From assembly GCA_016180645.1 (NCBI GenBank), contig JACPAV010000033.1:1-64000 (forward strand): DNA of 64,000 nt. Reading direction: 5' to 3'. The DNA is from Nitrospirota bacterium (GTDB lineage: Bacteria; JACPQY01). How positions within the stretch are numbered: position 1 is the first letter of the stretch; every line of letters begins with the position of its first letter. Made by a program: the position numbers and the translations under genes. Shown here piece by piece: positions 1,508 to 15,203 of this stretch. Under the pieces are notes generated by a model, which saw nothing but the letters and a program-made list of their open reading frames with translations, made no database searches and was not told where the DNA came from.

Positions 1508-4500
1508 ATGAAAAGCTTCGGCGCCTTTGGTCGCACCGCACTCTTGTGTCTCCTTTTCGCGCCCTTCTCCTTTCGGGAAGTTTTGGCGGCGAGCGAGGGG
1601 ATGGCCGCATTTGCAAGCGGAACGAGCACTACCCCCAACCACCGTACGTGGAACTCAACATTCAATAATGACTTGGATGCGGCCACGGCCACGGCCAACG
1701 CCGCGGCGGGGACCATCGAATACTCCGTACTGCGCCGCTGCCCGGTGCGTCGCGAATACATCCTGGGCACGCTCGATTCGGCCGGCACGATCACGATTCA
1801 AACCACTTCTGACGACGGAGCAACTTGGACGGCCCGGGGGTCCTGCTCCACCTGCCAAGGCACGACCAACGACGCCTTCGGCGGGCTCGACATCGCCTAC
1901 GAGCAGTCCTCCGGTGAAGCCCTTATCGTTTTCGAAAATGCTACCGGCAACAACAAGCTCATCCGGTATGACCGGTGGGACGGCACCACGTACACGTCGG
2001 CTTCCACCCTCACCATAACGGGCGGGAACACTACCACGCGCTGGGTTCGCCTCAAGTCCCTTGCGGGAAGTGATCGCATTGCTCTTGCGGTCGCCGGCGC
2101 GAACAGCACCTTGAATGTCTCCGTGTGGAACGGCTCGACATGGGAGAGCACCTCGACCAGCCTGACGGCTTCTCTGGCCGCCGTGACGGTTAGGGCGTTC
2201 GATATCGAGTTCGAACAGTCTACGGGGGACATCTTGGTGGTGTACGGCTCGGGTACCACGCTGAGCCACCACACTTGCCCCGCTCCAGCCGCCTGCACTT
2301 GGAGCGGCGCCACCTCAAACAGCCCCTTCAACCCGGGCGTGGCCGTCAACTGGGTGGAAATGGCCGCCGATCCGGCCACGGACGATATCGCCCTGATCGC
2401 GCATATGAACGGAACCGGCTGCACAACCGCAACCTGCCGGGCTCAACATGACCTTTGGACCGGCGCCGGTTGGGTAGGGGGAACGACGGCCGACACTTCC
2501 GTCAACGTCACGTCCGCCAGCAGCCCCAATATCCCGGTCGCCGTGGCCTGGGAGAAAAGCAGCAGCACCGCCCTTTTCGCCTTCGTAGATGGAAGCTCGA
2601 CCACTGCGGTGGACTACGTTACGGCCGCCGGCTGCTCGGGCGGTTGCACATGGACCCCCGCGACCGGCACAAACCTCACCAACGCCTCAACCACCACCCA
2701 AACCTGGCCGGGAGCAATACCAACGGTCCAGCTCGTCGGCAGCCCCAACGAGAATCAGATCTACCTCCTGGCGGAGAGCGTGGATACGGCCGCACCGGCC
2801 GACTATGAGCTCCAAGCCCTCCTCTGGAGCGGCGGGGCCTTTTCCCAAACCGCCACGCAAAGCCAAGTCTCCATCGACGTTGACTCCAACGCTTTCGCGC
2901 CGTTCAGTTTCGCGTGGTCCTATCCCTTCTTTCAGCAGGCCAACTACCAGTGGTTTCTGAACCAGAGCACCCCGGTGCTGAATCCGGCCGACCCGGGGGA
3001 TCAGTTGGCCACGGACAATAACGTGGCTACGGGCGTCTACACAACGAGAGAAGTGAGGCTCCGCGTCAACTTCACCGCCCGAGGGGGGACGCTGGCATCG
3101 GGGAAAATCCTGCGGCTCCAGTACAGCAGCGATGCGACGAGTTGCACCACCGGCACATGGACCGACATCGGGAGCACCGAGACAACCAACATGATCTGGC
3201 GCGTGATCGGTTCCGGCGGTGTCCTGACGGATGAAACCTCGGTTACGGCCCAACGGGTGGACGGTTCAACCCTGAATGGGCTGTACACCGAGTCGGGAGA
3301 CAGCACGACCGCCGCGTCCTACTCCCTGGGGGACACCCCGGAATGGGACTGGAGCTTCACCAACTTCCAGGCTCCTCCGAATACGGGATATCGATTCCGA
3401 ATGCTCGAAGTGGTCGGCGGAACCCCCACGGTTACCGGGTCCTATTCGTCGAACTGCCCGCAGCTTTCGACCACGGATCCGGACGGATTGGTGGCGTACG
3501 CAACGACCTCGGGCGCCAACGAACCCAAGTATAAGAACTGGACGGGCACCCAGTTCGATGCGTCGGAGTCCGATGCCGGGACGCAGACGAGCACCATCCG
3601 ATATGTGGTGCAGAAAACAGCCAAGGTGGCGAGCAACCTCAAACTCATGGGAACGCTCGACAGCACCGGCGCCATCACCTTCCGCTATTGGAACGGCGCC
3701 TCCTGGGCCGCCCCCGGCGGGAGCTGTACGTGCAGCACCTCGGCTGCGAACAGCGCCTATCGCGGGTTCGATATCGCCTTCGAGTCCAAATCAGGCGAAG
3801 GGCTCATCGTCTGCGATGACGGGACGGCCAACGACAGTGTCAACTACTGCACCACCACCGCAGGCGGGGCGACTCTCTCGAACGCCGGCTCGCTGACCGT
3901 TTCCACCGGCTCGGCCAACGCCAACTGGATCAGGCTCGAGGCCAGCCCGGCGGCCGACTACATCGTGATGGGCGTGTTGAACTCCAATACCACCGCCACG
4001 GGCGCGGTCTGGAACGGGAGCAGTTGGGTGACCAACACCACCTTTTCGGACACGACCAGTTCAGCTACCAACGAGGCCTTCGACGTGGCATGGCACCGTG
4101 TCACCAGCCGAGCCATGATCGCATACGGCACCGGCACTTCTACCAACTACTCCATCTGGCAGTCCGGAACATGGGGAACGCCGGCGGCGGCAGGTAACCC
4201 GGGAGCTGCCGTGAGTTGGCTTCAACTCGATGCGTCCCACGTGAGCGATTACATCCTGGAAGTCACGGTGGACGGCGGCTCGGACGTCGAAACGTTTGCC
4301 TGGAGCGGGAGCGCTTGGAGTACGCCCGGGAGTTGCGCCGATGCAGCCGCCAGCCTGCTCGCCAATCGGTCGATCGATGTGAAATGGGAAACCGTCAGCA
4401 GCGACGCCCTGATTGCCTATGTGGATGCGGCGGGCGGCGGAGGAAACGACAAAGTCACCTACTGGACCTACACGGAGGGTGGGAGTTGCGCGGCGGCGGC

Positions 4501-7500
4501 CACAATCGGAACATTCACGGACGTGCAGACGGTGCAACTCCGGAACTCGCCCGACGGCGACGAGATCATGCTCCTCGCGTTGGACAGCACGAGCGCCATC
4601 AAGGGCTTCATCTGGAGCGGCAGCGCGTTCTCCACGCCTACCGGCAGCGCTCTAACGGCGGCGGCCTCGGCGGCCGCATACGAACCGTTCATGTACGCCT
4701 GGAATGCCGGAGCGCCCACTCTCGTCGAACTCGTCTCCTTCGGGGGGTACAGCAGGAGCCGTGGGCTTCAGCCCGCGTCCGACGGTCCGGTAGGCGCAGG
4801 CTTTATGCCTGCGTCCGAAGACGCACCCGTAAAGGGTGCGGCTACCAGCGCTGGGGGATACGAAGTGGTCTTGGAATGGGAAACGGCGGCGGAACGCTCC
4901 AATGCAGGTTTCTACCTGCATCGGAGCGAGACGCGAGACGCGGGACGCAAGACGCAGGTCAATCAGAAGATGATCCAGGGCCTTGGAACAAGCGCCCGCG
5001 GCAAGAAATACGTCTTCGTCGACGACCTCTCCGATCTCATCACTCATCACTCATCACCCATCACGATTCAGTACTGGCTCGAAGACGTCGAATTCAACGG
5101 CACCCGCACGATGCACGGCCCGGTGGAAGTCCACGTCGGCCTCGATTCGGACGGCGATGGGATGCCGGATGATTGGGAACGCGCGTACGGATGCGCCTCC
5201 GCACTCGGTCGGTCTGCGATTCGTAGGGGCGGATCTTCAGATCCGCCCTCTTGGGGAGACCGTAGGGGAGCATCTTTAGATGCTCCTTCTCTGGGAGGGT
5301 CTAAAGACCCTCCCCTACAATGCCTCGATCCCCTCGTCGCAGACGCCGACGGCGACGCCGACGGAGATGGGATCAGCAACCTCCTCGAGTACCTCAACGG
5401 CACCTCGCCCACCGCCATCGAAAGCGGGGTGTGGATCACGGACCTTTCCGCGTTCAAATCTAGGGGTCAGGGGTCAGGGGCCAGGGGCCAGGAACTAGGA
5501 ACCAGGAACCAGGAACCACCCGCTCACCCTGAGCCCGTCGAAGGGTGGCGGGTGACCAAAGAAGACTCCACCGGTATCGAGATGGAATGCACCGGAGAGG
5601 GTTGCTCCACTCCGGCCCGCCTCGCCGTCCCGCCGGGCGCCAAACTCCACGATTCTCCTGGTGTCGACGCGATTGCCGAAGGCATCTTCCGGGATCAAAC
5701 CATTCTGCGAATAGCTTCAGCGGACAAGGAGGTAACCGGCATTCTCCGTGCGCGTCTGGAATTCGCAGGTCCCCACGTTCCGGTAGCCGCAGGCTTCAGC
5801 CTGCGTCCCGAGCGCACCCTGAAGGGCGCGGCTACCCCGGATCTCACAAGTCTCCTTGATTCCGTCGTCCTGAACAAGTTCCGTTGGGCGTTTGTCAGTA
5901 GGGGAGCATCTTTAGATGCTCCCTTCAACGCGGGCGGATCTAAAGATCCGCCCCTACAAGGCGGAGAGTGGCGATCTCCCTCGCGCTCGACCGGAACATC
6001 GCTGAAAGTTTCCGTGACCGAAACCGGCGTCTACAAAATCACCCGCGACGACATCGCCGACGCCGGCCTCGATCCGAATCTCTTCGATCCGGAAAAGGCG
6101 CAGGTGTGGGTTCCTGGTTCCTTGTTCCTAGTTCCTGGTGGAGAACGATTACAGCCCGTGAATGTTCAAGCGGACGGTGGGGCATTGTATTTCCTTGGGG
6201 AGCCCGCCGACTCGAAATACACCCGCACGAATGCGTATTGGCTTCTCTTGGATCCGTCGAACGTCGAACGTCGAACGTCGAACGAAATCCTGGATTTGAC
6301 TCAACCGGGACCGGCCGACGAACCGTTCCAAGACGCGCTTCGGCTTGATCCCTCTGCTTGCGTCCTGCGTCCTGCGCCCTCCAGGATGGAGCAAGTGCCG
6401 CGAGAGGGCAGGAGCCCGGAGCGGCCGTCCTGCGCCCTCCTTTATTGGCAAGAAATGCCCGGCCCCTCAGACGCGGAACGGTTCTTCTTCGCCCCCGTCC
6501 TCAAGGACGGCGATTCACACGACTACGAGTTCGAGCTGCCTGAACTCGCGAGCAACGAGCAACGAGCAACGAGCAACCTCCAAGTAGGGCTTACCCTTCT
6601 CGGACTGGCCGAATCGAACGTGGCCCAGAGCCACAAAGTCGAAGTCTCGCTGAACGGTCTGACTCTTGGCGAAATGACATGGACCGGCCGGGATCTCTTC
6701 CACTCCTCACTTCGCACTTCGCACTCCGCACTTCGCACCGGACAAAATACAATGACCCTCAAGGTGCTGCTTGCGGAGGGCGCCCAGTTCGATCAAGTTC
6801 TGCTCAAAGGTGCGACGATTCCATACTATCGACCTTCGCGCCTCGCGCTCCCGGTCGTGAACCCATCACTCATCACCCATTACGCATCACGCGGCCTCTT
6901 GGATGCCACCAATCGGGCCGACTACATCATGATTCTGCCGGAGGCAGGGGTCGGCAAATCTGTAGGGGCGGGTCTTCAGACCCGCCCGGAGGGAGCATCT
7001 GAAGATGCTCCCCTACAAGAAGCCCTTCGGCCGCTGGTCGAATACCACGAATCCCACGGGCTCACCGTCAAAGTCGTTTCGCTGGATCAGATCTATGATG
7101 AATTCGGGGCCGGTCTCGCCACGCCGCACGCCATCAAGAATTTCCTCCATTTCGCATTTCACAATTGGCAATCTCCGAAACCCTCCTACGTCCTCCTCGT
7201 CGGCGATGCCTCATACGACTACAAGGGGTATGAGGATGGGGAACAAGTTCCTGGTCCCTCGTTCCTCGTTCCTAGCTATCTTCTCTATACCCCCTTGGGG
7301 GGTGAGGTGCCTTCAGACGCTTGGTTTGTTTCTTTCGATGGAGGGGCGCCCTTCGACAAGCTCAGGGTGAGCGGAGAACAAACCGCTCGTGGTGAGCTTG
7401 TCGAACCACGGGGCAACGAGATCGATCTCTTTCCCGATATGGCAATCGGGAGATTGCCGGCGAGGACTCCCGACGAACTCTCAGCAATGGTGGACAAGAT

Positions 7501-8458
7501 CCTTCACTACGCGGACGACGATCCGGAATCGAATTGGCGCCGGAACGTGCTGCTGGTGGCGGACAACTTTCAATCCGATTTCGAAGGGGTTTCGGAAAGC
7601 CTCTTCGACCTTGCGCCGCCCAGTCTGCTCCTCACCCGAGGCTACCTCTCGCTCCTTCCCTCCGCGAGCGATCTGTCCGGCGCGATCGTCAAGGAGATCA
7701 ATTCGGGCGCCTCCCTCATCAACTACCTGGGCCACGGCTCCGCCGAGTTCTGGGCCGCCGAGAAAGTCTTCGGCTCCGCGCAACTCCCTGCGCTGGAAAA
7801 CCTGGGCCGATATCCTTTCATTTCCACGTTGACCTGTATCAACGGTTACTTTGTCTTCCCGCCGGAGCAGGAGTTTGAGGCCATGGCCGAAGAGTTCGTT
7901 CGGGCCCCCGGCAAAGGTGCGGTGGCATTTTTCGCTCCCAGTGGAATGTCCAGCCCCGCCGTTCACGGCGCGCTCAACCGCGCGCTCTACAAGGCGATCA
8001 CGCAGGACCGAGTCAATCCGATCGGCGCGGCGATTCAGAAAGCCTATCTCGATGTGGCTTCGCAGGTCAGCGCAGGTCGATGGGAATACGTCCCCCAGAT
8101 GTTCGTCCTCTTCGGCGACCCCGCGATGGACTTGGTGCTTCCGACCTCCGATGCCCCCGCGACTCACGACGCACAACGGACGACTGACGATTCCGGTTGC
8201 GGCTGCGCCCACATCGGCGCGCCGGCGGGATGGGCGGGAGGGCTGACGGGGTTCTTTGGACTTCTGGGCCTCTACGCGGTAACGCGGATTCTTCGTCGCC
8301 GGCGCCGAAGGTCTTGGCCTAAGTGCAAGTTCATGCGTATGTGCGGATTCGCAAACGGTGGCGCGGACCCTGAAGGGCCCGCTACAGAGCTCAAATCGTG
8401 TAGCCGAGCCTTCAGGCTCGGCAAGTCAACCCGCACAATGCGTTGTGCGGGTACGTAG
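1508..8458 (+). CDS. Giant secreted C25-family (gingipain-like) cysteine protease with MYXO-CTERM-like tail, riddled with repeats
   Basis: The 2,316-residue frame begins with a signal peptide (about residues 1-27, ending VLAA). Residues about 30-485 and 656-1065 are two related beta-rich repeats of the propeller type with recurring WNG-W and LDS-G-I patterns, separated by a further beta domain. A Ca-binding DSDGDGMPDDW motif lies at 1213-1223. From about 1500 the sequence follows the C25 architecture (LKVSVTETGVYKI), and the peptidase domain spans about 1800-2220 with the catalytic pair His2076 (YLGHGS) and Cys2110 (TCINGYF). The C-terminus carries GCGC (2230-2233), a hydrophobic helix (about 2242-2259) and six Arg (2263-2268), the pattern of MYXO-CTERM sorting signals. 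It is probably exported, anchored and later released. The frame contains at least seven palindromic insertions and about eleven heptamer arrays, all read through. A 48-residue tail after the Arg run is repeat-derived. No close start competitor is seen. Confidence 0.88.
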   Translation: MKSFGAFGRTALLCLLFAPFSFREVLAASEGMAAFASGTSTTPNHRTWNSTFNNDLDAATATANAAAGTIEYSVLRRCPVRREYILGTLDSAGTITIQTTSDDGATWTARGSCSTCQGTTNDAFGGLDIAYEQSSGEALIVFENATGNNKLIRYDRWDGTTYTSASTLTITGGNTTTRWVRLKSLAGSDRIALAVAGANSTLNVSVWNGSTWESTSTSLTASLAAVTVRAFDIEFEQSTGDILVVYGSGTTLSHHTCPAPAACTWSGATSNSPFNPGVAVNWVEMAADPATDDIALIAHMNGTGCTTATCRAQHDLWTGAGWVGGTTADTSVNVTSASSPNIPVAVAWEKSSSTALFAFVDGSSTTAVDYVTAAGCSGGCTWTPATGTNLTNASTTTQTWPGAIPTVQLVGSPNENQIYLLAESVDTAAPADYELQALLWSGGAFSQTATQSQVSIDVDSNAFAPFSFAWSYPFFQQANYQWFLNQSTPVLNPADPGDQLATDNNVATGVYTTREVRLRVNFTARGGTLASGKILRLQYSSDATSCTTGTWTDIGSTETTNMIWRVIGSGGVLTDETSVTAQRVDGSTLNGLYTESGDSTTAASYSLGDTPEWDWSFTNFQAPPNTGYRFRMLEVVGGTPTVTGSYSSNCPQLSTTDPDGLVAYATTSGANEPKYKNWTGTQFDASESDAGTQTSTIRYVVQKTAKVASNLKLMGTLDSTGAITFRYWNGASWAAPGGSCTCSTSAANSAYRGFDIAFESKSGEGLIVCDDGTANDSVNYCTTTAGGATLSNAGSLTVSTGSANANWIRLEASPAADYIVMGVLNSNTTATGAVWNGSSWVTNTTFSDTTSSATNEAFDVAWHRVTSRAMIAYGTGTSTNYSIWQSGTWGTPAAAGNPGAAVSWLQLDASHVSDYILEVTVDGGSDVETFAWSGSAWSTPGSCADAAASLLANRSIDVKWETVSSDALIAYVDAAGGGGNDKVTYWTYTEGGSCAAAATIGTFTDVQTVQLRNSPDGDEIMLLALDSTSAIKGFIWSGSAFSTPTGSALTAAASAAAYEPFMYAWNAGAPTLVELVSFGGYSRSRGLQPASDGPVGAGFMPASEDAPVKGAATSAGGYEVVLEWETAAERSNAGFYLHRSETRDAGRKTQVNQKMIQGLGTSARGKKYVFVDDLSDLITHHSSPITIQYWLEDVEFNGTRTMHGPVEVHVGLDSDGDGMPDDWERAYGCASALGRSAIRRGGSSDPPSWGDRRGASLDAPSLGGSKDPPLQCLDPLVADADGDADGDGISNLLEYLNGTSPTAIESGVWITDLSAFKSRGQGSGARGQELGTRNQEPPAHPEPVEGWRVTKEDSTGIEMECTGEGCSTPARLAVPPGAKLHDSPGVDAIAEGIFRDQTILRIASADKEVTGILRARLEFAGPHVPVAAGFSLRPERTLKGAATPDLTSLLDSVVLNKFRWAFVSRGASLDAPFNAGGSKDPPLQGGEWRSPSRSTGTSLKVSVTETGVYKITRDDIADAGLDPNLFDPEKAQVWVPGSLFLVPGGERLQPVNVQADGGALYFLGEPADSKYTRTNAYWLLLDPSNVERRTSNEILDLTQPGPADEPFQDALRLDPSACVLRPAPSRMEQVPREGRSPERPSCALLYWQEMPGPSDAERFFFAPVLKDGDSHDYEFELPELASNEQRATSNLQVGLTLLGLAESNVAQSHKVEVSLNGLTLGEMTWTGRDLFHSSLRTSHSALRTGQNTMTLKVLLAEGAQFDQVLLKGATIPYYRPSRLALPVVNPSLITHYASRGLLDATNRADYIMILPEAGVGKSVGAGLQTRPEGASEDAPLQEALRPLVEYHESHGLTVKVVSLDQIYDEFGAGLATPHAIKNFLHFAFHNWQSPKPSYVLLVGDASYDYKGYEDGEQVPGPSFLVPSYLLYTPLGGEVPSDAWFVSFDGGAPFDKLRVSGEQTARGELVEPRGNEIDLFPDMAIGRLPARTPDELSAMVDKILHYADDDPESNWRRNVLLVADNFQSDFEGVSESLFDLAPPSLLLTRGYLSLLPSASDLSGAIVKEINSGASLINYLGHGSAEFWAAEKVFGSAQLPALENLGRYPFISTLTCINGYFVFPPEQEFEAMAEEFVRAPGKGAVAFFAPSGMSSPAVHGALNRALYKAITQDRVNPIGAAIQKAYLDVASQVSAGRWEYVPQMFVLFGDPAMDLVLPTSDAPATHDAQRTTDDSGCGCAHIGAPAGWAGGLTGFFGLLGLYAVTRILRRRRRRSWPKCKFMRMCGFANGGADPEGPATELKSCSRAFRLGKSTRTMRCAGT
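4757..4848. repeat. In-frame palindromic repeat insertion in the C25 gene
   Basis: Three hairpins in series: GTGGGCTTCAGCCCGC, GGCGCAGGCTTTATGCCTGC and GCACCCGTAAAGGGTGC. The host protein reads LVELVSFGG before it and EVVLEWETAAERSNAG after it, a pairing usual in such surface proteins without the intervening segment, so the block looks inserted. Confidence 0.8.
4928..4956. repeat. Heptanucleotide tandem repeat (GAGACGC-type, about 4 units)
   Basis: Units GAGACGC, GAGACGC, GGGACGC, AAGACGC run head to tail inside the C25 gene and encode ETRDAGRKTQ. A 7-bp unit is not a multiple of three, so gain or loss of one unit would shift the frame. Confidence 0.8.
5036..5065. repeat. Heptanucleotide tandem repeat (CATCACT-type, about 4 units)
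   Basis: Units CTCATCA, CTCATCA, CTCATCA, CCCATCA follow one another inside the C25 gene and are translated as LITHHSSPIT. Confidence 0.8.
5218..5321. repeat. In-frame palindromic insertion splitting a Ca-binding motif in the C25 gene
   Basis: Three hairpins: GGGCGGATCTTCAGATCCGCCC, GGGGAGCATCTTTAGATGCTCC and GGGAGGGTCTAAAGACCCTCCC, with the usual GTAGGGG / CCCCTAC joints. The sequence falls between DDWERAYG (ends residue 1228) and LDPLVADADGD (starts 1273), which are contiguous in ordinary proteins of this kind. Confidence 0.88.
5462..5517. repeat. Heptanucleotide tandem repeat, 8 units (GGGGTCA to GGAACCA)
   Basis: Eight consecutive 7-bp units: GGGGTCA x2, GGGGCCA x2, GGAACTA, GGAACCA x3. 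Total 56 bp. It is translated within the C25 gene as a Gly/Gln/Arg/Glu-rich linker (GSGARGQELGTRNQEP). Confidence 0.92.
5526..5546. repeat. Short palindrome ACCCTGAGCCCGTCGAAGGGT in the C25 gene
   Basis: ACCCT and AGGGT arms surround GAGCCCGTCGA. It is related to one arm of the larger TTCGACAAGCTCA palindrome at 7349-7411 and encodes HPEPVEGW. Confidence 0.65.
5783..5836. repeat. In-frame palindromic insertion (GGTAGCCGCAGGCTTCAGCC type)
   Basis: GCAGGCTTCAGCCTGC followed by GCGCACCCTGAAGGGCGC, flanked by GGTAGC / GCTACC. It is the same module as at 4757-4848 and 18115-18297. It encodes PVAAGFSLRPERTLKGAAT within the C25 gene. Confidence 0.82.
5899..5958. repeat. In-frame palindromic insertion, two hairpins
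   Basis: GTAGGGGAGCATCTTTAGAT and its complement, then GGGCGGATCTAAAGATCCGCCC and CCCCTAC. The outer GTAGGGG / CCCCTAC ends pair with each other. It encodes SRGASLDAPFNAGGSKDPPL. Confidence 0.88.
6110..6138. repeat. Heptanucleotide tandem repeat (GTTCCTG-type, 4 units)
   Basis: GTTCCTG, GTTCCTT, GTTCCTA, GTTCCTG inside the C25 gene, encoding VPGSLFLVPGG. The unit is the reverse complement of the GGAACCA-type array at 5462-5517. Confidence 0.85.
6257..6284. repeat. Heptanucleotide tandem repeat (TCGAACG x4)
   Basis: Four identical TCGAACG units inside the C25 gene, translated as SNVERRTSN. Confidence 0.9.
6357..6381. repeat. Heptanucleotide tandem repeat (TGCGTCC-type, 3 units)
   Basis: TTGCGTCC, TGCGTCC, TGCGCCC inside the C25 gene, encoding ACVLRPAPS. 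Confidence 0.7.
6548..6577. repeat. Heptanucleotide tandem repeat (GAGCAAC x4)
   Basis: Four exact GAGCAAC units inside the C25 gene, encoding ASNEQRATSNL. Confidence 0.9.
6700..6738. repeat. Heptanucleotide tandem repeat (GCACTTC-type, 5 units)
   Basis: CACTCCT, CACTTCG, CACTTCG, CACTCCG, CACTTCG in the C25 gene, encoding HSSLRTSHSALRTG. Confidence 0.85.
6862..6892. repeat. Degenerate heptanucleotide repeat (CATCACC-type)
   Basis: CCCATCA, CTCATCA, CCCATTA, CGCATCA inside the C25 gene, encoding PSLITHYASRG; same family as 5036-5065. Confidence 0.7.
6959..7016. repeat. In-frame palindromic insertion at the start of the C25 peptidase domain
   Basis: GTAGGGGCGGGTCTTCAGAC and its complement, then GGGAGCATCTGAAGATGCTCCC and CCCTAC. 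It falls between YIMILPEA and EALRPLVEYH, so a conserved part of the peptidase domain is interrupted by about 20 extra residues. Confidence 0.88.
7247..7275. repeat. Heptanucleotide repeat (GTTCCTC-type, 4 units)
   Basis: GTTCCTG, GTCCCTC, GTTCCTC, GTTCCTA inside the C25 gene, encoding VPGPSFLVPS; same family as 6110-6138. Confidence 0.75.
7349..7411. repeat. In-frame palindrome TTCGACAAGCTCA ... TGAGCTTGTCGAA
   Basis: A 13-bp perfect inverted repeat separated by about 27 bases. It encodes PFDKLRVSGEQTARGELVEP, between WFVSFDG and NEIDLFPDMAIGRLPA of the C25 peptidase domain. A half-like copy lies at 5526-5546 and a diverged one near 8484. Confidence 0.88.
8159..8193. repeat. Degenerate heptanucleotide repeat (ACGACTC-type, about 5 units)
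   Basis: GCGACTC, ACGACGC, ACAACGG, ACGACTG, ACGATTC just before the GCGC sorting signal of the C25 protein. Confidence 0.65.
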
Positions 8459-8505
8459 AATCGGTTTTACAACCGTTCTCACGTGGTTCGACGGGTTCAC
8501 CACGA
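8359..8505. repeat. Palindrome cluster bridging the C25 gene and the TMTC-like gene
   Basis: Successive hairpins: GACCCTGAAGGGCCC; GCCGAGCCTTCAGGCTCGGC (8403-8422); CCCGCACAA / TTGTGCGGG (8430-8451); GGTTTTACAACC; and CGTGGTTCGACGGGTTCACC (from 8482). The C25 frame reads into the cluster and stops at 8458. The next gene's frame opens inside it at 8483. Confidence 0.8.
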
Positions 8506-10555
8506 ACGATCCTCAGCTCACAAATCCTCCGTTCGCCCTGGACCTGCCGAAGCGCGGAGAAACGGGCTTGAGGCCGGTTCTGGGCGCGCCTCTCTGACCC
8601 TGTACTCCTGCGCACTGTTGTTGCTGGTTGCACTCCCCTATCTCAATACGTTTCGGGTCCCTTTCTACGAGGATGACAGACCACACATCACCAACAACCC
8701 TTCCGTGGTTGGAATGGGCGACCTTTCAGCGAAGCGCCTTTGGGATGCTGCTTTCACAAGCCCGCTGCCAAGTCGCCCGGTTCCGAACCTGACTCTCGGG
8801 CTCAACTACTATTTGCACGGCTTCAGCCTGCCTGGATACCATGCTTTCAATCAGCTTGTTCACTCGCTTTGCGTGGTCTTGCTCTTCCATGTCTTCTTTC
8901 TTCTCCTGACTTTCCACGAGAATCAGATCCTGATTCGGAACCGGCGAATGGTTGCGTTTCTCGCGGCCTTGTTGTGGGGGGTCCACCCTATTCACACGCA
9001 GGTGGTGACATACATCGTTCAGCGCATGACGTCCATGGCTGCGCTGTTCTATCTGTCATCTTTCAGGAGCTTCTTGATCTATCGAAATGAAGCTTCCAAG
9101 CATCCGAGTATTCATCGGATCCTATCCTGCCTATTCTATGTTCTCGCACTGGGGTCCAAGGAAACTTCGTTGACGCTTCCCCTATTGGTCCTGATCTACG
9201 AACTCTTGCTCGTCCCGGGCAAGCCCGGCCAGGCTCTCTGGAGGAGATTTTCCGGAACCTTCTTGTTCGGTGGATTGGCCGCAGGCGCATCCGTCTTCTA
9301 CACCATCTTCTACGCAACCGGGTTCAACAAGTTCCAGGTTGCCCTTGGCGTTGAGTCTTTTCCGGGGATTCAAGCTTCACTGGGCATGCTGGTTTCGAGA
9401 GCATTGACGAACTGTCGCGCGTTGTTTTTCTACTTGGAGCTGTTGGGTACTCCCTCCCCAAAGAATCTGAGCCTCTTTCGGGAGTTCGAGGCTTCCCGCT
9501 CTCTCTTCGAACCTCCGACAACAACGCTCGCCTTGCTGGCCACGGCAGGTCTTGTCTGGGCTTGCGTCTCGCTTCGCAAGTCGAACCCGCTTGCCGTGTT
9601 TCTTGTACTCTGGTTTCCGGTGCACTTGAGCGTGGAAGGGGCCATGGCTGGACTCAGAGCCGTTTTCGATCATCGAATGTATCTCTCTTCGGCCGGCGTC
9701 GTCCTGTTATGTGTTGGCCTGCTCGCGCCCAGAATCCTTAGGAACAGAGCGGTCCTGCTCATGGGTCTGGCATCGGTCAGCCTTGCGTTGGGAACAATGA
9801 CGTTACTCAGAAACAGGATTTGGGCAGATCCAGAAACCTTTTGGCAATTGGCGGTGAAAAATAGCCCCTCGCAGCCCGGCGCTTGGAACAATCTTGGCAT
9901 CGTCTACGCGGAGAAAGGCCGCTACGAAGAAGCCTTGGGCTACTACGAAGAGAGCTTGCACAGGAACCCCAACTACCTGTTTGCTCACCAGAACCGGGCG
10001 CATGCCTTTATCCAATTGGGAGAATACGAGAAAGCACTGACAGCCGCTGAATTTGTGCTGTCGATCGATTCCGGTTGGGCAAAAAGCCACGAAATCGCCG
10101 CGATGGCCTGCGAAAAGCTGGGAGATAGCGCCCAAGCACTCTCCCACTACGAGAAGGCCGCCGCCCTCTCCAAGACTGCGCATAGCTATGCCCTGTTGGG
10201 CAGTTACCTGAGCAGGTTGGCTGAGTGGCAGGAAGCTGCCCACGCCTACCAAAAGGCCCTCGACCGAGACCCGAGGTACGAAGACGTTTACGTCAACCTA
10301 GGTGCGCTTTACCTGCTTAATCTGAACAAGCCCACGGAGGCTCGCAAGATCGCGGAAAAAGGTCTCGATCACTCCCCAGAAGACCCCGATCTTCTGGTTA
10401 TTGCGGGCCTCTCGCACTGTCAACTCCTGGACTTTCCTGTCGCGCTAACCCTCCTGTGGAGAGCCAAGGGGCTTACCTCCCCCGGGTATCCGAGATTAGG
10501 ACTCCTTGAGGATGGACTGGCCAAGGCTTCGAATGGAATCCGATGTTTCAGATAG
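8483..10555 (+). CDS. TMTC-like polytopic membrane protein with C-terminal TPR repeats
   Basis: The 690-residue frame opens at GTG 8483, but the first ~37 residues are encoded by repeat DNA and the true start may lie nearer to 8600, just before the first membrane helix. About ten hydrophobic segments occupy residues ~38-440. YEDDRPHITNNPSV and HPIHTQVVTYIVQRMTSMAA are hallmarks of the TMTC / GT39-like family, membrane proteins that in eukaryotes transfer mannose to proteins. Residues ~463-640 form four to five tetratricopeptide repeats (WNNLGIVYAEKGRYEEALGY and successors) for protein contacts. It probably works in surface glycosylation or polysaccharide export, in line with the Wzc-like gene 2.4 kb away, but the substrate is unknown. 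It ends 20 bp before the convergent minus-strand gene. Confidence 0.75.
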   Translation: MVRRVHHERSSAHKSSVRPGPAEARRNGLEAGSGRASLTLYSCALLLLVALPYLNTFRVPFYEDDRPHITNNPSVVGMGDLSAKRLWDAAFTSPLPSRPVPNLTLGLNYYLHGFSLPGYHAFNQLVHSLCVVLLFHVFFLLLTFHENQILIRNRRMVAFLAALLWGVHPIHTQVVTYIVQRMTSMAALFYLSSFRSFLIYRNEASKHPSIHRILSCLFYVLALGSKETSLTLPLLVLIYELLLVPGKPGQALWRRFSGTFLFGGLAAGASVFYTIFYATGFNKFQVALGVESFPGIQASLGMLVSRALTNCRALFFYLELLGTPSPKNLSLFREFEASRSLFEPPTTTLALLATAGLVWACVSLRKSNPLAVFLVLWFPVHLSVEGAMAGLRAVFDHRMYLSSAGVVLLCVGLLAPRILRNRAVLLMGLASVSLALGTMTLLRNRIWADPETFWQLAVKNSPSQPGAWNNLGIVYAEKGRYEEALGYYEESLHRNPNYLFAHQNRAHAFIQLGEYEKALTAAEFVLSIDSGWAKSHEIAAMACEKLGDSAQALSHYEKAAALSKTAHSYALLGSYLSRLAEWQEAAHAYQKALDRDPRYEDVYVNLGALYLLNLNKPTEARKIAEKGLDHSPEDPDLLVIAGLSHCQLLDFPVALTLLWRAKGLTSPGYPRLGLLEDGLAKASNGIRCFR

Positions 10556-10564
10556 ACTTATCGC

Positions 10565-10582
10565 CGCCATGCTTTCATGGCG
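10565..10582. terminator. Possible bidirectional hairpin between convergent genes
   Basis: A perfect 7-bp stem, CGCCATG / CATGGCG, around CTTT, lies just after the stop at 10555 and overlaps the TGA of the minus-strand gene. No T-run follows, so termination is only suggested by position. Confidence 0.3.
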
Positions 10583-12723
10583 CCGCGGCACGTGCAAGGT
10601 ATATATCTCCATCCTGTTCCCATGCGACAGTGACATTTCGGTCAGAATCCACGTGGATGGCAGGTCTAGTGTGGAATCGGCCACTGGAGAGTGAAACAGT
10701 GGGACCAAAAGTAGCGCCACCGTTCGAAGAGCGTCGTAGCCCGATGGAAGATGAGAGCAAGGATCCCACAGGGGGAAAAACTTCGGCCACAACGTAAACA
10801 TTCCCCGCATTGTCGGCATCGACATCGGGTTCACCTCCGGACACTCCCGTCCCAAATATGTCCACCGGGATTGAGAATGTCGCGCCGCTGTCTAGGGAAC
10901 GGCTAAACAAGAGTCTATAGGGGCAGGTGCTATTGGTACGGTCGCAGTCGCGCCAAATCGCATAGGTGCCTGTGCTGGCAGATGAAGTTGCTGGTATCTC
11001 GGACCACCCTGGATTATTGGATACATTTACGGGCGGGGAAAAGCTGACACCACTGTCAGCCGAGCGAATGAAGAAAATGTCGCGTTGCGTTTCCCAAGAT
11101 CCTATGGGATAGCTCGCGACTACAGAGACAGCGCCTGGACCCGGGCCTGTCGCGACATCGGTGAAGGCTGGACCTCCCAGCGGCAGTTGCACGGCCGGCA
11201 GGAAGCTGGATTCAGCATCAGTTGAGCGTCTCAGCTTGATGGCCCCCGTAGCCAGTTCATTGTAAGTCACGTACACGGTTCCAATCACCTGCGTATCGGC
11301 TGCCACGATTATGTGGACCGGTCGCACGCCAGGAGTGGAGATGGAGATGGGTAAGGAAAAGGTACTCCCTCCGTCCAGCGAGCGGCGGAAGAGCACCTCT
11401 CCGGTGACTTGGTTGCGCGTCGCAACAAAGACCTGGCCTGCTGCATTCGCCGCTACGGATGGGGTGGACTCTAGATACTCCACCGTGAGGCCGGCGAGCG
11501 CCGTAAGGTCCATAGCAGGCGAGAAACCTACGCCTCCATCGGTTGACTTGGTGAACATGATGTGGACCTCGCCCCCCCCCAAATGTTGCTGCCATATTAC
11601 GTAAATTGTACTCGGGGCAACACTTGCTACGGCTGCGAAACCTTTGCCTATGAGAGGCGTACCTGAAACGTTAATAGGGGTGGAAAACACCAGAGGGCAT
11701 GTCCCGCAATCACTTGAACAAGATGAGCAGGTTTCCGCTGGCGCATCACAAACGCTCTGAGAGGTCGCGTTGGGCGAAAAGAGCACGCTTGGGGCAACAC
11801 CCGAAACGTAGGTCCAGAGATACCCGAGCGAGGCCGAGGTTTGCTCCAGATCGCTGGAATGCACCCCGATGAGTTGAGTCGCTGGAAACCGGCTGGAATC
11901 TGCATCCGCGACAGCCGTTGGTGCCGTGTTCGTGGCACAAGCAGAGGTCCCCACACTTGGGGTAACGGGAGATGTCCCGTTGTTGTTTCCGACAACTTGG
12001 AAGTTCCGTAACTTCCCACCGGAGCCTATTGTAATACTCCCTGTGAAGTTTCCACCAACAAAGATATTCTCCACTGTCGAACCACCTTGGATGAAAATAT
12101 CGCCGCTGAGGTTACCGTCGATCACGATGCTTTTCACCTCCGCGGGCCAAGATACCGTAATTCCGCTTCCAGGGTTCAGATTTCCGGTGATGTGAAGTGT
12201 ACTTACGTCGGCGGAAATGTTTATGGGCTGATTTACATTTCCCGTGATATCAACGGTGCCTGTTGGGGCATCAATGTTCCAAGTGTTGGTGACAGCAGTC
12301 AATCCCCCCAACACGGCCAGCGAGCCAAGAGGGCCATCGATCGTCCCGACACCGAGAAAAGGACCACCCAGAACAATTTCGTGTAGAGTTCCCCCCATGA
12401 GTACTTCACGCGCGTGTCCTTTGACGCTGATCGAGGTGTGCGGGCCGACTGCGGAGGAGAGAATCTCGTCGACGTTACCTCTTGCGATAATCTGGATCGA
12501 GCGGTCGTTGGAACCCAATACCACCAGTCTTGCGACATGGTGCGGGATCGAAACGACTTGAGAAGAGATCAGGGAGATATCAATTGTAACGTCCTTCGGA
12601 GGGCCAATTGGAATACCCCCCCCCCCCCGCTGACACAATTCCGCCCACGTCGACCAGTCCAACAAAACCAATAACGGCTGCAAGAATCCAAGGCTTGATT
12701 CCAGACGCTCCTGAATGTTTCAC
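10575..12723 (-). CDS. Secreted beta-helix / Asp-box repeat protein with frame broken at a poly-G tract
   Basis: The 5' part (GTG at 12723, preceded by AAGGAGGTG) encodes VKHSGASGIKPWILAAVIGF, a signal peptide, then Gly residues from a G13 tract (12616-12628). With 13 G the frame runs into a stop at 12580. With 12 or 15 it would join the long frame that continues to 10575. The mature protein would have ~250 residues of Gly/Val/Ile-rich short repeats resembling a right-handed beta-helix. A Cys-rich spacer follows (TCSSCSSDCGTC), then about five Asp-box-like sialidase repeats (S-DGG--FS) making a propeller of ~350 residues. It is likely surface-exposed and phase-variable, although a homopolymer sequencing error would look the same. 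An alternative start, GTG 12816 with its own AGGAGG, adds 31 residues containing a G10 tract. Confidence 0.65.
11572..11580. repeat. C9 homopolymer (G9 on coding strand) inside the beta-helix/Asp-box gene
   Basis: Nine C at 11572-11580 encode LGGGE on the minus strand and are in frame as given. It is shorter than the G13 tract but still a candidate slippage site. Confidence 0.7.
12616..12628. repeat. C13 homopolymer (G13 on coding strand) at the signal-peptide junction
   Basis: Thirteen C lie directly after the predicted signal peptide of the minus-strand gene. A tract length of 3n (12 or 15) joins signal peptide and mature protein; 13 puts them out of frame. Confidence 0.9.
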
Positions 12724-12798
12724 TGTTTCACCTCCTTCATTTCGCTTGGCTAGCGGCCCGCCATGTCGAGAGCTCCCCTCCCCCCGATGATACGCAAA

Positions 12799-12808
12799 CC
12801 CCCCCCCC
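12799..12808. repeat. C10 homopolymer (G10 on coding strand) after an upstream start codon
   Basis: Ten C lie three codons after GTG 12816, which has AGGAGG eight bases upstream. At 10 G the upstream start is in frame with the GTG at 12723. Confidence 0.85.
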
Positions 12809-12836
12809 TTTTGCACTAATCCAACCTCCTACGGCT

Positions 12837-12935: not shown

Positions 12936-15203
12936 CTACACCGCGGAACCGTTCGCGCGACTGACCGTGGGACGCTCCGTCTTTCGACGCCGCAGCCCCC
13001 ACGCTCCCCCACGCCGTTTCCGAAGGGGAGCCGGCGCGCCGTAGGTGTATCGCTGGTAGTAGTAGTATTGCGAGGACATTCCCTTCAGATCGATGGCGTT
13101 CACCAGCACCCCGGCCAGATTGATGCGGTGGTCGCGCAGCACCTGCACACACCGCTGAAGCGTCTCGCGCGGCGCGCGGCCGGCCCGGTAGACGAGAATC
13201 GCCACGTCCGCTTTCTGTCCCACGATCGTCGCATCGGCGACGGCCATGACCGGCGGAGTATCCACAATCACAACATCGAACTGTGCTCGGAGATCGTCGA
13301 AGAAAGACGTGGCGATCAGTTGTTCCAGGCTTTCGGCGGGATGAGCATCGATCCCTCCCGAGGGAATGATCCGGAAATAGTCCAACCCCGGCCCGCTCGT
13401 CAGCATCTTTGAACTGATTCCCTGGGCGAAAAGATCGGAAACGCCCAGCGCGGCCTCGGACCACAGCCGCCCCTCATGGATGACGCTTCTCAAGCCATCC
13501 ACCTCTTTCAACCCGAGGGTTTTCGCCAGAACGGGTCGGCGCATGTTGCATTCGACATAAATGGCCCGAAGCCCCGTCTGCGCAAAAGCCAGCGTCAGGC
13601 CCATCGAAATCATGCTCTTGCCCTCCTGCGGAGTGGCCGAACACACCATGATCATCCTGTTGCGCCCGAATTCGCGAAGGAGACGGGTCCGCAGGGAGCG
13701 GAACGACTCCGAGATCGTCGCCTTCGGCTCGGTGTGGACGACCCAGTAAGCCCGGCGATTTCGCGATTCTGCGTCCTCACCTTCCCCGGAACCCGGCTCA
13801 GGTTGGTAGTAGGGGACGACCCCCAAGACGATCGAGCCCAGGAGGGCCTCGATATCCAGGATGTTCGTGAGCGAGAAATCAAAACTTTCCCGCACGAGGG
13901 CAAGCCCAATGCCCACGATCAATCCCAGGATGACCGCGACGAGTTGAGGCCGCACCTGCTGCTTCCCGAACCGGGGGGTTCTGGGAAGGATGGCCGGTTG
14001 AATGATTTCGGCTCTCGAAACCGTGTAGGCGCTCTTGATCCGGTTTTCCTGGTACTCCTTCTCCAGAAAGATGGACATTTCTTCGATGACGGTCACCTCT
14101 TTCTCGAGTTTGTAGAGCTGGGATTCGAGGTCAAGGAGCGCGCGGTTCTGCTCCCGATACCTCTGGATCTGTTCCTCGAGTCGGGCGTCGTCCTCCAAGA
14201 GCGAGCGAAGAAGTCCCTCAAGACTTTGCACCAGGCTCCGGCGGGAGTTCTCGAGCCGGCCCATGGCCGATTTGACCGACGGATGGTTCGGGGTCTGGTC
14301 GTTCGAAAGGTCGATGACTTCGCGCAGGGAGGCGCGGATGTCATTCTCGGCTGCGGCCAGATCCGGATCGATCTTGCGGATCCGGAGTTCTTCCAGCATC
14401 TGGAGAGTGACCGCGCCCTTGTCCAGCGTATTCAAGGCCGTCGCCGTCTGCGCCCTCTTCACCTCCAGGGATTCCTTCTGGCGAATAAGCGCCTCGTGCC
14501 CTGCCACCGCTGCCGCGATCTGGGGCTGCAGACTCAGAAAGTTGTTTTGGAGTTTGAATTCGTTGAGCTTCCGCTGGGCATCATCGAGCGATCGCGCAAG
14601 CTCCTGTTTCTGTCCCCGGACAAACTTCAGGACCTCTTCGTTGGATTTCTGCGAACTCTGCGAGTAGTACTCCACGTAGGCTTGGGCAACGGCGTTGGCC
14701 AAGTCGCGGGCCCTCGGCGGCGAGGGGTCTACAACCGTCAGGGTAAGGATCGCGGAATTCTCCACGCGCGAGACCTTCAGCTTCCCCCTCAAATCGGTCA
14801 GGAGTCCGAGCCACTGCTCCGAGCTGCTTACCGTTTCCCAACCGATGTCGGGGGGAATCACGCCGACCTTTTTCAGTGCCTCCGTGAGGAGAGGGAAACT
14901 TTGAACCACCTGTACCTGGCCCTGGGCCTCGGCGGCCGCGCTGTATTCGACGAACCCCATCTCCTTCTCAAATTGCCCCTTGATTTCAACGCTGGCCTGG
15001 GCTTCGTAGACGGGCTCTCGGGCCGGTTTGAAAAAGAAGCTGGCTCCAAAAGACGCCAGCACCGTGAGGGCGACGATATACCGGCGACGATAGAGGATGC
15101 CCATGAAGCGCCGGATGTCCATCCCGGCCCCGGCGGGTTGCATGTGATGCACCACGGGCGGCGGTGTGGGGCGTGGAATGGCGGGCAGAACGGGGTCAGT
15201 CAC
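12936..15203 (-). CDS. Wzc-like polysaccharide co-polymerase / BY-kinase
   Basis: A 755-residue inner-membrane protein of the PCP-2a type. The N-terminus has a Wzz-like domain with a first membrane helix (about residues 36-58, YIVALTVLASFGASFF). A long periplasmic coiled coil (about 180-400) and a second helix (about 425-442, AVILGLIVGIGLALV) follow. The cytosolic kinase has Walker A ATPQEGKS (Lys529), a Walker A' segment VECNMRRP and Walker B VVIVDTPP, and the C-terminus has a tyrosine cluster (SQYYYYQRYTYG) for autophosphorylation. Length and order match Wzc/GumC-type proteins, which control capsule or exopolysaccharide chain length. No other polysaccharide polymerisation gene is adjacent. 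The start is GTG 15203 with no Shine-Dalgarno; the upstream space is an octamer repeat. Confidence 0.9.
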   Translation of the reverse strand: MTDPVLPAIPRPTPPPVVHHMQPAGAGMDIRRFMGILYRRRYIVALTVLASFGASFFFKPAREPVYEAQASVEIKGQFEKEMGFVEYSAAAEAQGQVQVVQSFPLLTEALKKVGVIPPDIGWETVSSSEQWLGLLTDLRGKLKVSRVENSAILTLTVVDPSPPRARDLANAVAQAYVEYYSQSSQKSNEEVLKFVRGQKQELARSLDDAQRKLNEFKLQNNFLSLQPQIAAAVAGHEALIRQKESLEVKRAQTATALNTLDKGAVTLQMLEELRIRKIDPDLAAAENDIRASLREVIDLSNDQTPNHPSVKSAMGRLENSRRSLVQSLEGLLRSLLEDDARLEEQIQRYREQNRALLDLESQLYKLEKEVTVIEEMSIFLEKEYQENRIKSAYTVSRAEIIQPAILPRTPRFGKQQVRPQLVAVILGLIVGIGLALVRESFDFSLTNILDIEALLGSIVLGVVPYYQPEPGSGEGEDAESRNRRAYWVVHTEPKATISESFRSLRTRLLREFGRNRMIMVCSATPQEGKSMISMGLTLAFAQTGLRAIYVECNMRRPVLAKTLGLKEVDGLRSVIHEGRLWSEAALGVSDLFAQGISSKMLTSGPGLDYFRIIPSGGIDAHPAESLEQLIATSFFDDLRAQFDVVIVDTPPVMAVADATIVGQKADVAILVYRAGRAPRETLQRCVQVLRDHRINLAGVLVNAIDLKGMSSQYYYYQRYTYGAPAPLRKRRGGAWGLRRRKTERPTVSRANGSAV

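Follow-up and report, generated by a model that had tools for sequence, protein, structure and literature searches.

Homopolymeric tracts which switch the reading frame of exported proteins are known from several bacteria. In Neisseria, the signal-peptide regions of pilC1 and pilC2 contain a homo-G tract (Jonsson et al. 1991, cited in PMC5354566), and the pilC tract ranges from G9 to G20 (PMC5953494). In Helicobacter pylori, CT repeats are located in the signal-peptide region of oipA and vary across hundreds of isolates (PMC10564699). Also, poly-G/C phasomes have been described for Campylobacter (PMC6321876) and Helicobacter canadensis (PMC2823697), and the cut-off for contingency loci applied here follows these studies, i.e. 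a G/C tract of at least 7–9 nucleotides near the 5′ end of a coding sequence.

In the stretch of DNA analyzed here (64 kb; the window), a tract of 13 G residues (G13) was found on the minus strand at the position where a signal-peptide-like leader meets the coding region of a putative secreted protein. The window is part of a 4.7-Mb assembly (G000) consisting of 65 contigs, which is 97% complete and was searched as a whole, while genome-wide gene statistics rest on about 1.24–1.5 Mb of stretches. The features of the locus are as follows:

12825–12830, minus strand: AGGAGG, possible Shine-Dalgarno sequence of GTG 12816, found by direct reading, spacing 8 nt
12580–12816, minus strand: 78-codon ORF P0002 from GTG 12816 as assembled, with GTG 12723 in frame, ending at the stop after G13
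12799–12808, minus strand: G10 tract in the leader, 3′ of GTG 12816, of ordinary length for the genome
12728–12737, minus strand: AAGGAGGTGA, very strong Shine-Dalgarno sequence of GTG 12723, found by direct reading, spacing 4 nt
12629–12723, minus strand: signal-peptide-like leader MKHSGASGIKPWILAAVIGFVGLVDVGGIVSA from GTG 12723 to the tract, recognized by hydropathy
12616–12628, minus strand: G13 tract between the signal-peptide and mature-protein coding parts, splitting their frames
10575–12605, minus strand: intact body P0001 of 676 aa with a probable N-terminal beta-solenoid and a weak BNR-like C-terminal part
11572–11580, minus strand: G9 run within the body, in frame (LGGGE)

An earlier note on this DNA had described G10 after GTG 12816 with its AGGAGG and G13 after GTG 12723, and direct reading confirmed both tracts and both starts as well as the strong Shine-Dalgarno sequence of the second start (AAGGAGGTGA, 12737–12728). 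G13 begins 95 nt downstream of GTG 12723 and is thus a 5′-end G/C tract according to the cut-off given above. The leader has a best 9-residue hydropathy of 3.0 and ends with ...IVSA, the VSA site being located immediately 5′ of G13, which supports the signal peptide proposed to adjoin the tract. At the assembled length, the leader frame runs into a stop at 12582–12580, the third frame past G13 stops at 12571, and the next frame continues without a stop for 679 codons, up to 10575. Because the body is open in this one frame only, leader and body are fused only at tract lengths divisible by three. Tract length therefore decides between the full-length frame and an early stop, and the frames and stops bear out the claim that 13 G residues truncate the protein at 12580 and that multiples of three give the full length.

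From the sequence, we tentatively propose that slipped-strand changes in G13, which closes the signal-peptide coding region, turn translation of a secreted, beta-rich protein ON and OFF, a reading to which we give somewhat less than an even chance. Replication slippage would add Gs to the tract or remove them. A tract length divisible by three would give the exported protein with a glycine run at its start; any other length would yield no more than a peptide of about 47 residues, and the assembled sequence would represent the OFF state. As in pilC, the signal-peptide region of a large, presumably exported protein holds a homo-G tract belonging to the same length class, and non-multiples of three end translation early. 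As in oipA, which encodes an outer-membrane protein, a repeat within the signal-peptide coding region sets the frame. Unlike in pilC, neither Pfam nor NCBIfam found a PilC/PilY1 domain in the body of the protein encoded here, the host possesses MutS and MutL, and a single assembled length is available; unlike oipA, the repeat is a mononucleotide and not a dinucleotide repeat. We regard G13 as a good but unproven candidate for a pilC-type switch.

The body P0001 shows a clear coding frame with a GC3 of 0.57, which corresponds to about the 1st percentile of genes in the genome. In Pfam, only a sub-threshold match to BNR_2 was obtained, and sequence searches in NCBIfam and the PDB gave no match. 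An AF2 prediction from the single sequence of the complete body was not usable (pLDDT 39). For the first 235 residues, pLDDT was 69 overall and 80–88 over residues 110–200, with a regular ladder of short strands, and a Foldseek search with this model retrieved no solved structure at E <0.1. The strand ladder thereby lends weak support to the previously suggested beta-helix protein. Homologues or further alleles of the gene were found neither by plasmid blastn nor by PDB sequence search nor in a scan of GTDB r220 contigs. A set of 60 genomes, including the sister genus and 58 others, contained no close homologue, and none at all was present in the sister genus; the weak matches obtained were confined to the BNR-like part and all came from unrelated genomes. 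The gene is flanked by genes for a Wzc-like exopolysaccharide kinase (12936–15203) and a TPR protein (8483–10555). Further away, at 1508–8458 on the plus strand, the window encodes a 2,316-aa protein, which has a peptidase domain of the C25 (gingipain) family and also matched the type IX secretion sortase PorU below threshold.

The length of G13 was compared with those of all G/C runs of the genome. Runs of exactly 9, 10, and 11 bases occur 79, 110, and 21 times, respectively, and the same ten-base peak is present in the sister-genus genome G001 (139, 185, and 37). Eight runs have at least 12 bases (12, 12, 12, 12, 13, 14, 14, and 33), and the four with at least 13 are located on contigs C7 (14), C16 (33), and C19 (14) and at the locus described here. 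The window contains no G/C run longer than 10 besides G13. G13 is thus a length outlier for this genome and exceeds expectation; G10 is ordinary and does not, ten being the modal length of long runs. Three tracts (G10, G13, and G9) fall within 1.24 kb, but a rough Poisson estimate gives about 0.35 such clusters per genome, so that the clustering by itself carries no significance. Of 42 runs of the G10 class in a 1.24-Mb sample, 34 were in frame within long ORFs, including genes which, judged by eye, we take to be HisF-, PurM-, and XseA-like. A role of every long G tract as a contingency locus was therefore rejected, as such tracts are mostly in frame in long, often conserved genes. Two of the longest tracts, G14 at C7:118741-118754 and G33 plus G11 at C16:79072-79131, are apparently intergenic and are embedded in REP-like inverted repeats (CCTTCCCCC..GGGGGAAGG).

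The genome resembles the phasomes of Campylobacter and Helicobacter canadensis in having many long G tracts with a peak at 9–10 and candidate switches at 5′ ends of genes. In contrast to these phasomes, most of its G10 tracts are read as in-frame codons in genes that are long and often conserved; the genome-wide set is therefore not a phasome, and only a few tracts of at least 12 bases look like candidates. The ten-base runs mostly represent in-frame Gly-Gly-Gly or Pro-Pro-Pro codons. Within genes, their peak exceeds a synonymous-codon null about tenfold for G and fourfold for C, and runs of 6–8 fall below this null. Their 5′ flank is C in 83–89% of cases, compared with about 45% for shorter runs. 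In most of the 58 other genomes, counts fall from 9 to 10 to 11, the clearest exception being G042. In the sister genus, Gly/Pro triplets encoded by runs are, in small numbers, as conserved as other triplets, and the sister gene often has mixed codons at these sites, which argues, within these small numbers, that the ten-base peak is a real property of the genomes. An artefact of base replacement as its cause is accordingly not supported. In ribosomal protein L2 (rplB, C3:264325-265183), a G9 run is read as RSAGGGAQ, an odd substitution inside the run; the sister genus has RGAGTAIQ, and most bacteria have RSAGT.

Loci with a similar layout were sought in the examined DNA of the same genome as starts with a Shine-Dalgarno sequence, a hydrophobic leader, and a tract within 150 nt. 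Seven such loci were detected, and the G13 locus alone is out of frame. The best parallel to it is G14 at C19:109915-109928 (minus strand), which directly follows a short signal-peptide-like start (MKRLVAILCVSHAR) in frame and belongs to the gene of a 1,935-aa secreted-type protein with Big and CARDB domains and PD40 propeller repeats. At C5:95398-95407 and C3:47970-47979, a signal-peptide-like leader is followed by G10, which preserves the frame of an ORF with 607 and 378 codons, respectively. G12 tracts on C4 and C49 are in frame, too. Almost all runs of 10 and 11 in conserved genes keep the frame, and it is broken only where a run has 12 or more bases, as in the single lpxA gene of the genome, which is out of frame at G12 (C17:48271-48282). 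In the sister genus, lpxA is intact with G10 at the same place. The break in lpxA is due either to a consensus error or to a genuine variation of tract length in this lipid A gene, and because of it assembled lengths of at least 12 bases cannot be taken at face value here.

Several observations favor the switch. Leader and body are in different frames at 13 G residues, the body is undamaged over 676 codons, and the frame lesion coincides with the site of the gene that is most mutable, in one of only four runs of at least 13 bases in 4.7 Mb. Furthermore, the locus is the sole one out of frame among the seven, G14 follows a similar, short leader in the gene of the 1,935-aa protein, and the layout is shared with Neisseria pilC and Helicobacter oipA. 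Other observations weaken this reading. Since lpxA is also broken at G12, long tracts may be misassembled; no second allele of the gene was found, the examined part of the genome yielded no further switch candidate that combines a signal peptide with a broken frame, and the organism is known from its assembly alone. Also, MutS and MutL are expected to lower slippage. Both were detected (MutS_V on C43, MutL on C38), which sets the organism apart from a Campylobacter-like phasome host with weak mismatch repair and no mutS/mutL, and missing mismatch repair was thus rejected as an explanation.

A consensus or assembly error is nearly as likely as the switch and has to be taken as a serious possibility, even if its chance is clearly below even. 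In this case, the true tract length would be divisible by three, the gene would be constitutively in frame, and the mature protein would simply begin with the glycine run. Artefacts caused by homopolymers are known (PMC8808543), and the frame break of lpxA at G12 in the same assembly, compared with the intact G10 gene of the sister genus, is consistent with such an error, as is the restriction of breaks in conserved genes to runs of at least 12 bases. The other signal-peptide tracts (G10, G10, and G14) being in frame points in the same direction. However, long tracts are not always wrong, as demonstrated by the in-frame G12 tracts on C4 and C49 and G14 on C19, and the break in lpxA could itself reflect real length variation.

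Recent inactivation, in which a fixed change of +1 or −2 in the tract would have disabled a secreted orphan protein with atypical composition, appears improbable. The broken frame as assembled, the low GC3, and the missing close homologues would fit to such a loss, but a second lesion is absent across all 676 codons, and a lesion at the most mutable site of the gene argues against it as well.

The earlier note had proposed two contingency tracts in series, with G10 varying the N-terminus or the use of starts and G13 switching the gene. Each tract indeed follows a plausible start with a Shine-Dalgarno sequence, and GTG 12816 and GTG 12723 share one frame at the assembled G10. Nevertheless, we consider this arrangement quite improbable, as G10 has the commonest long-run length in the genome's family, where such runs are mostly in-frame codons, and its off-lengths leave the second start free. 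At altered G10 lengths, the upstream ORF stops at 12752 or 12739, both before the second start, the stop at 12739 touching the second ribosome binding site. GTG 12723 is thus usable at every length of G10, which is therefore unable to switch the gene on or off by frame. The weak codon usage of the upstream ORF and the failure to recognize a sigma-70-like site around G10 and G13 also speak against a series of tracts. Unlike the mostly C-flanked G10 class of the genome, this G10 is preceded by A and followed by T; it is located in the gap behind the wzc-like gene. A possible effect is the modulation of the downstream gene via translational coupling. G10 is at most a modifier of a weak upstream ORF ending near the second ribosome binding site and should be dropped from the switch model. 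A promoter-spacer switch was rejected, since G10 lies outside the spacer of TTGACA-N17-TAGGAA, seen by eye upstream of it, and no sigma-70-like site was recognized near the tracts.

Slippage of RNA polymerase or ribosomes on G13, by which some full-length protein would be made at constant DNA sequence, would suit a long homopolymer directly 5′ of an intact, out-of-frame body, but is very unlikely, as A/T runs are the best-documented substrate for such slippage.

With the slipped-strand switch as the preferred reading of G13, a broader view can be formulated for the lineage, which we put forward as a speculation and consider unlikely: this uncultured lineage may maintain in each genome over 100 G tracts of precisely ten bases, most of them serving as in-frame codons, and its few tracts of 12–14, including G13 and G14 on C19 at signal-peptide junctions, may act as switches despite the presence of MutS and MutL. 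If G13 does not vary in length, the locus would serve as a warning that assembled homopolymers of at least 12 bases can imitate contingency loci, and lpxA points in this direction. If length variation is shown, an uncultured lineage would possess a poly-G switch of the pilC type for an exported protein, which would widen the known bacterial range of such switches.
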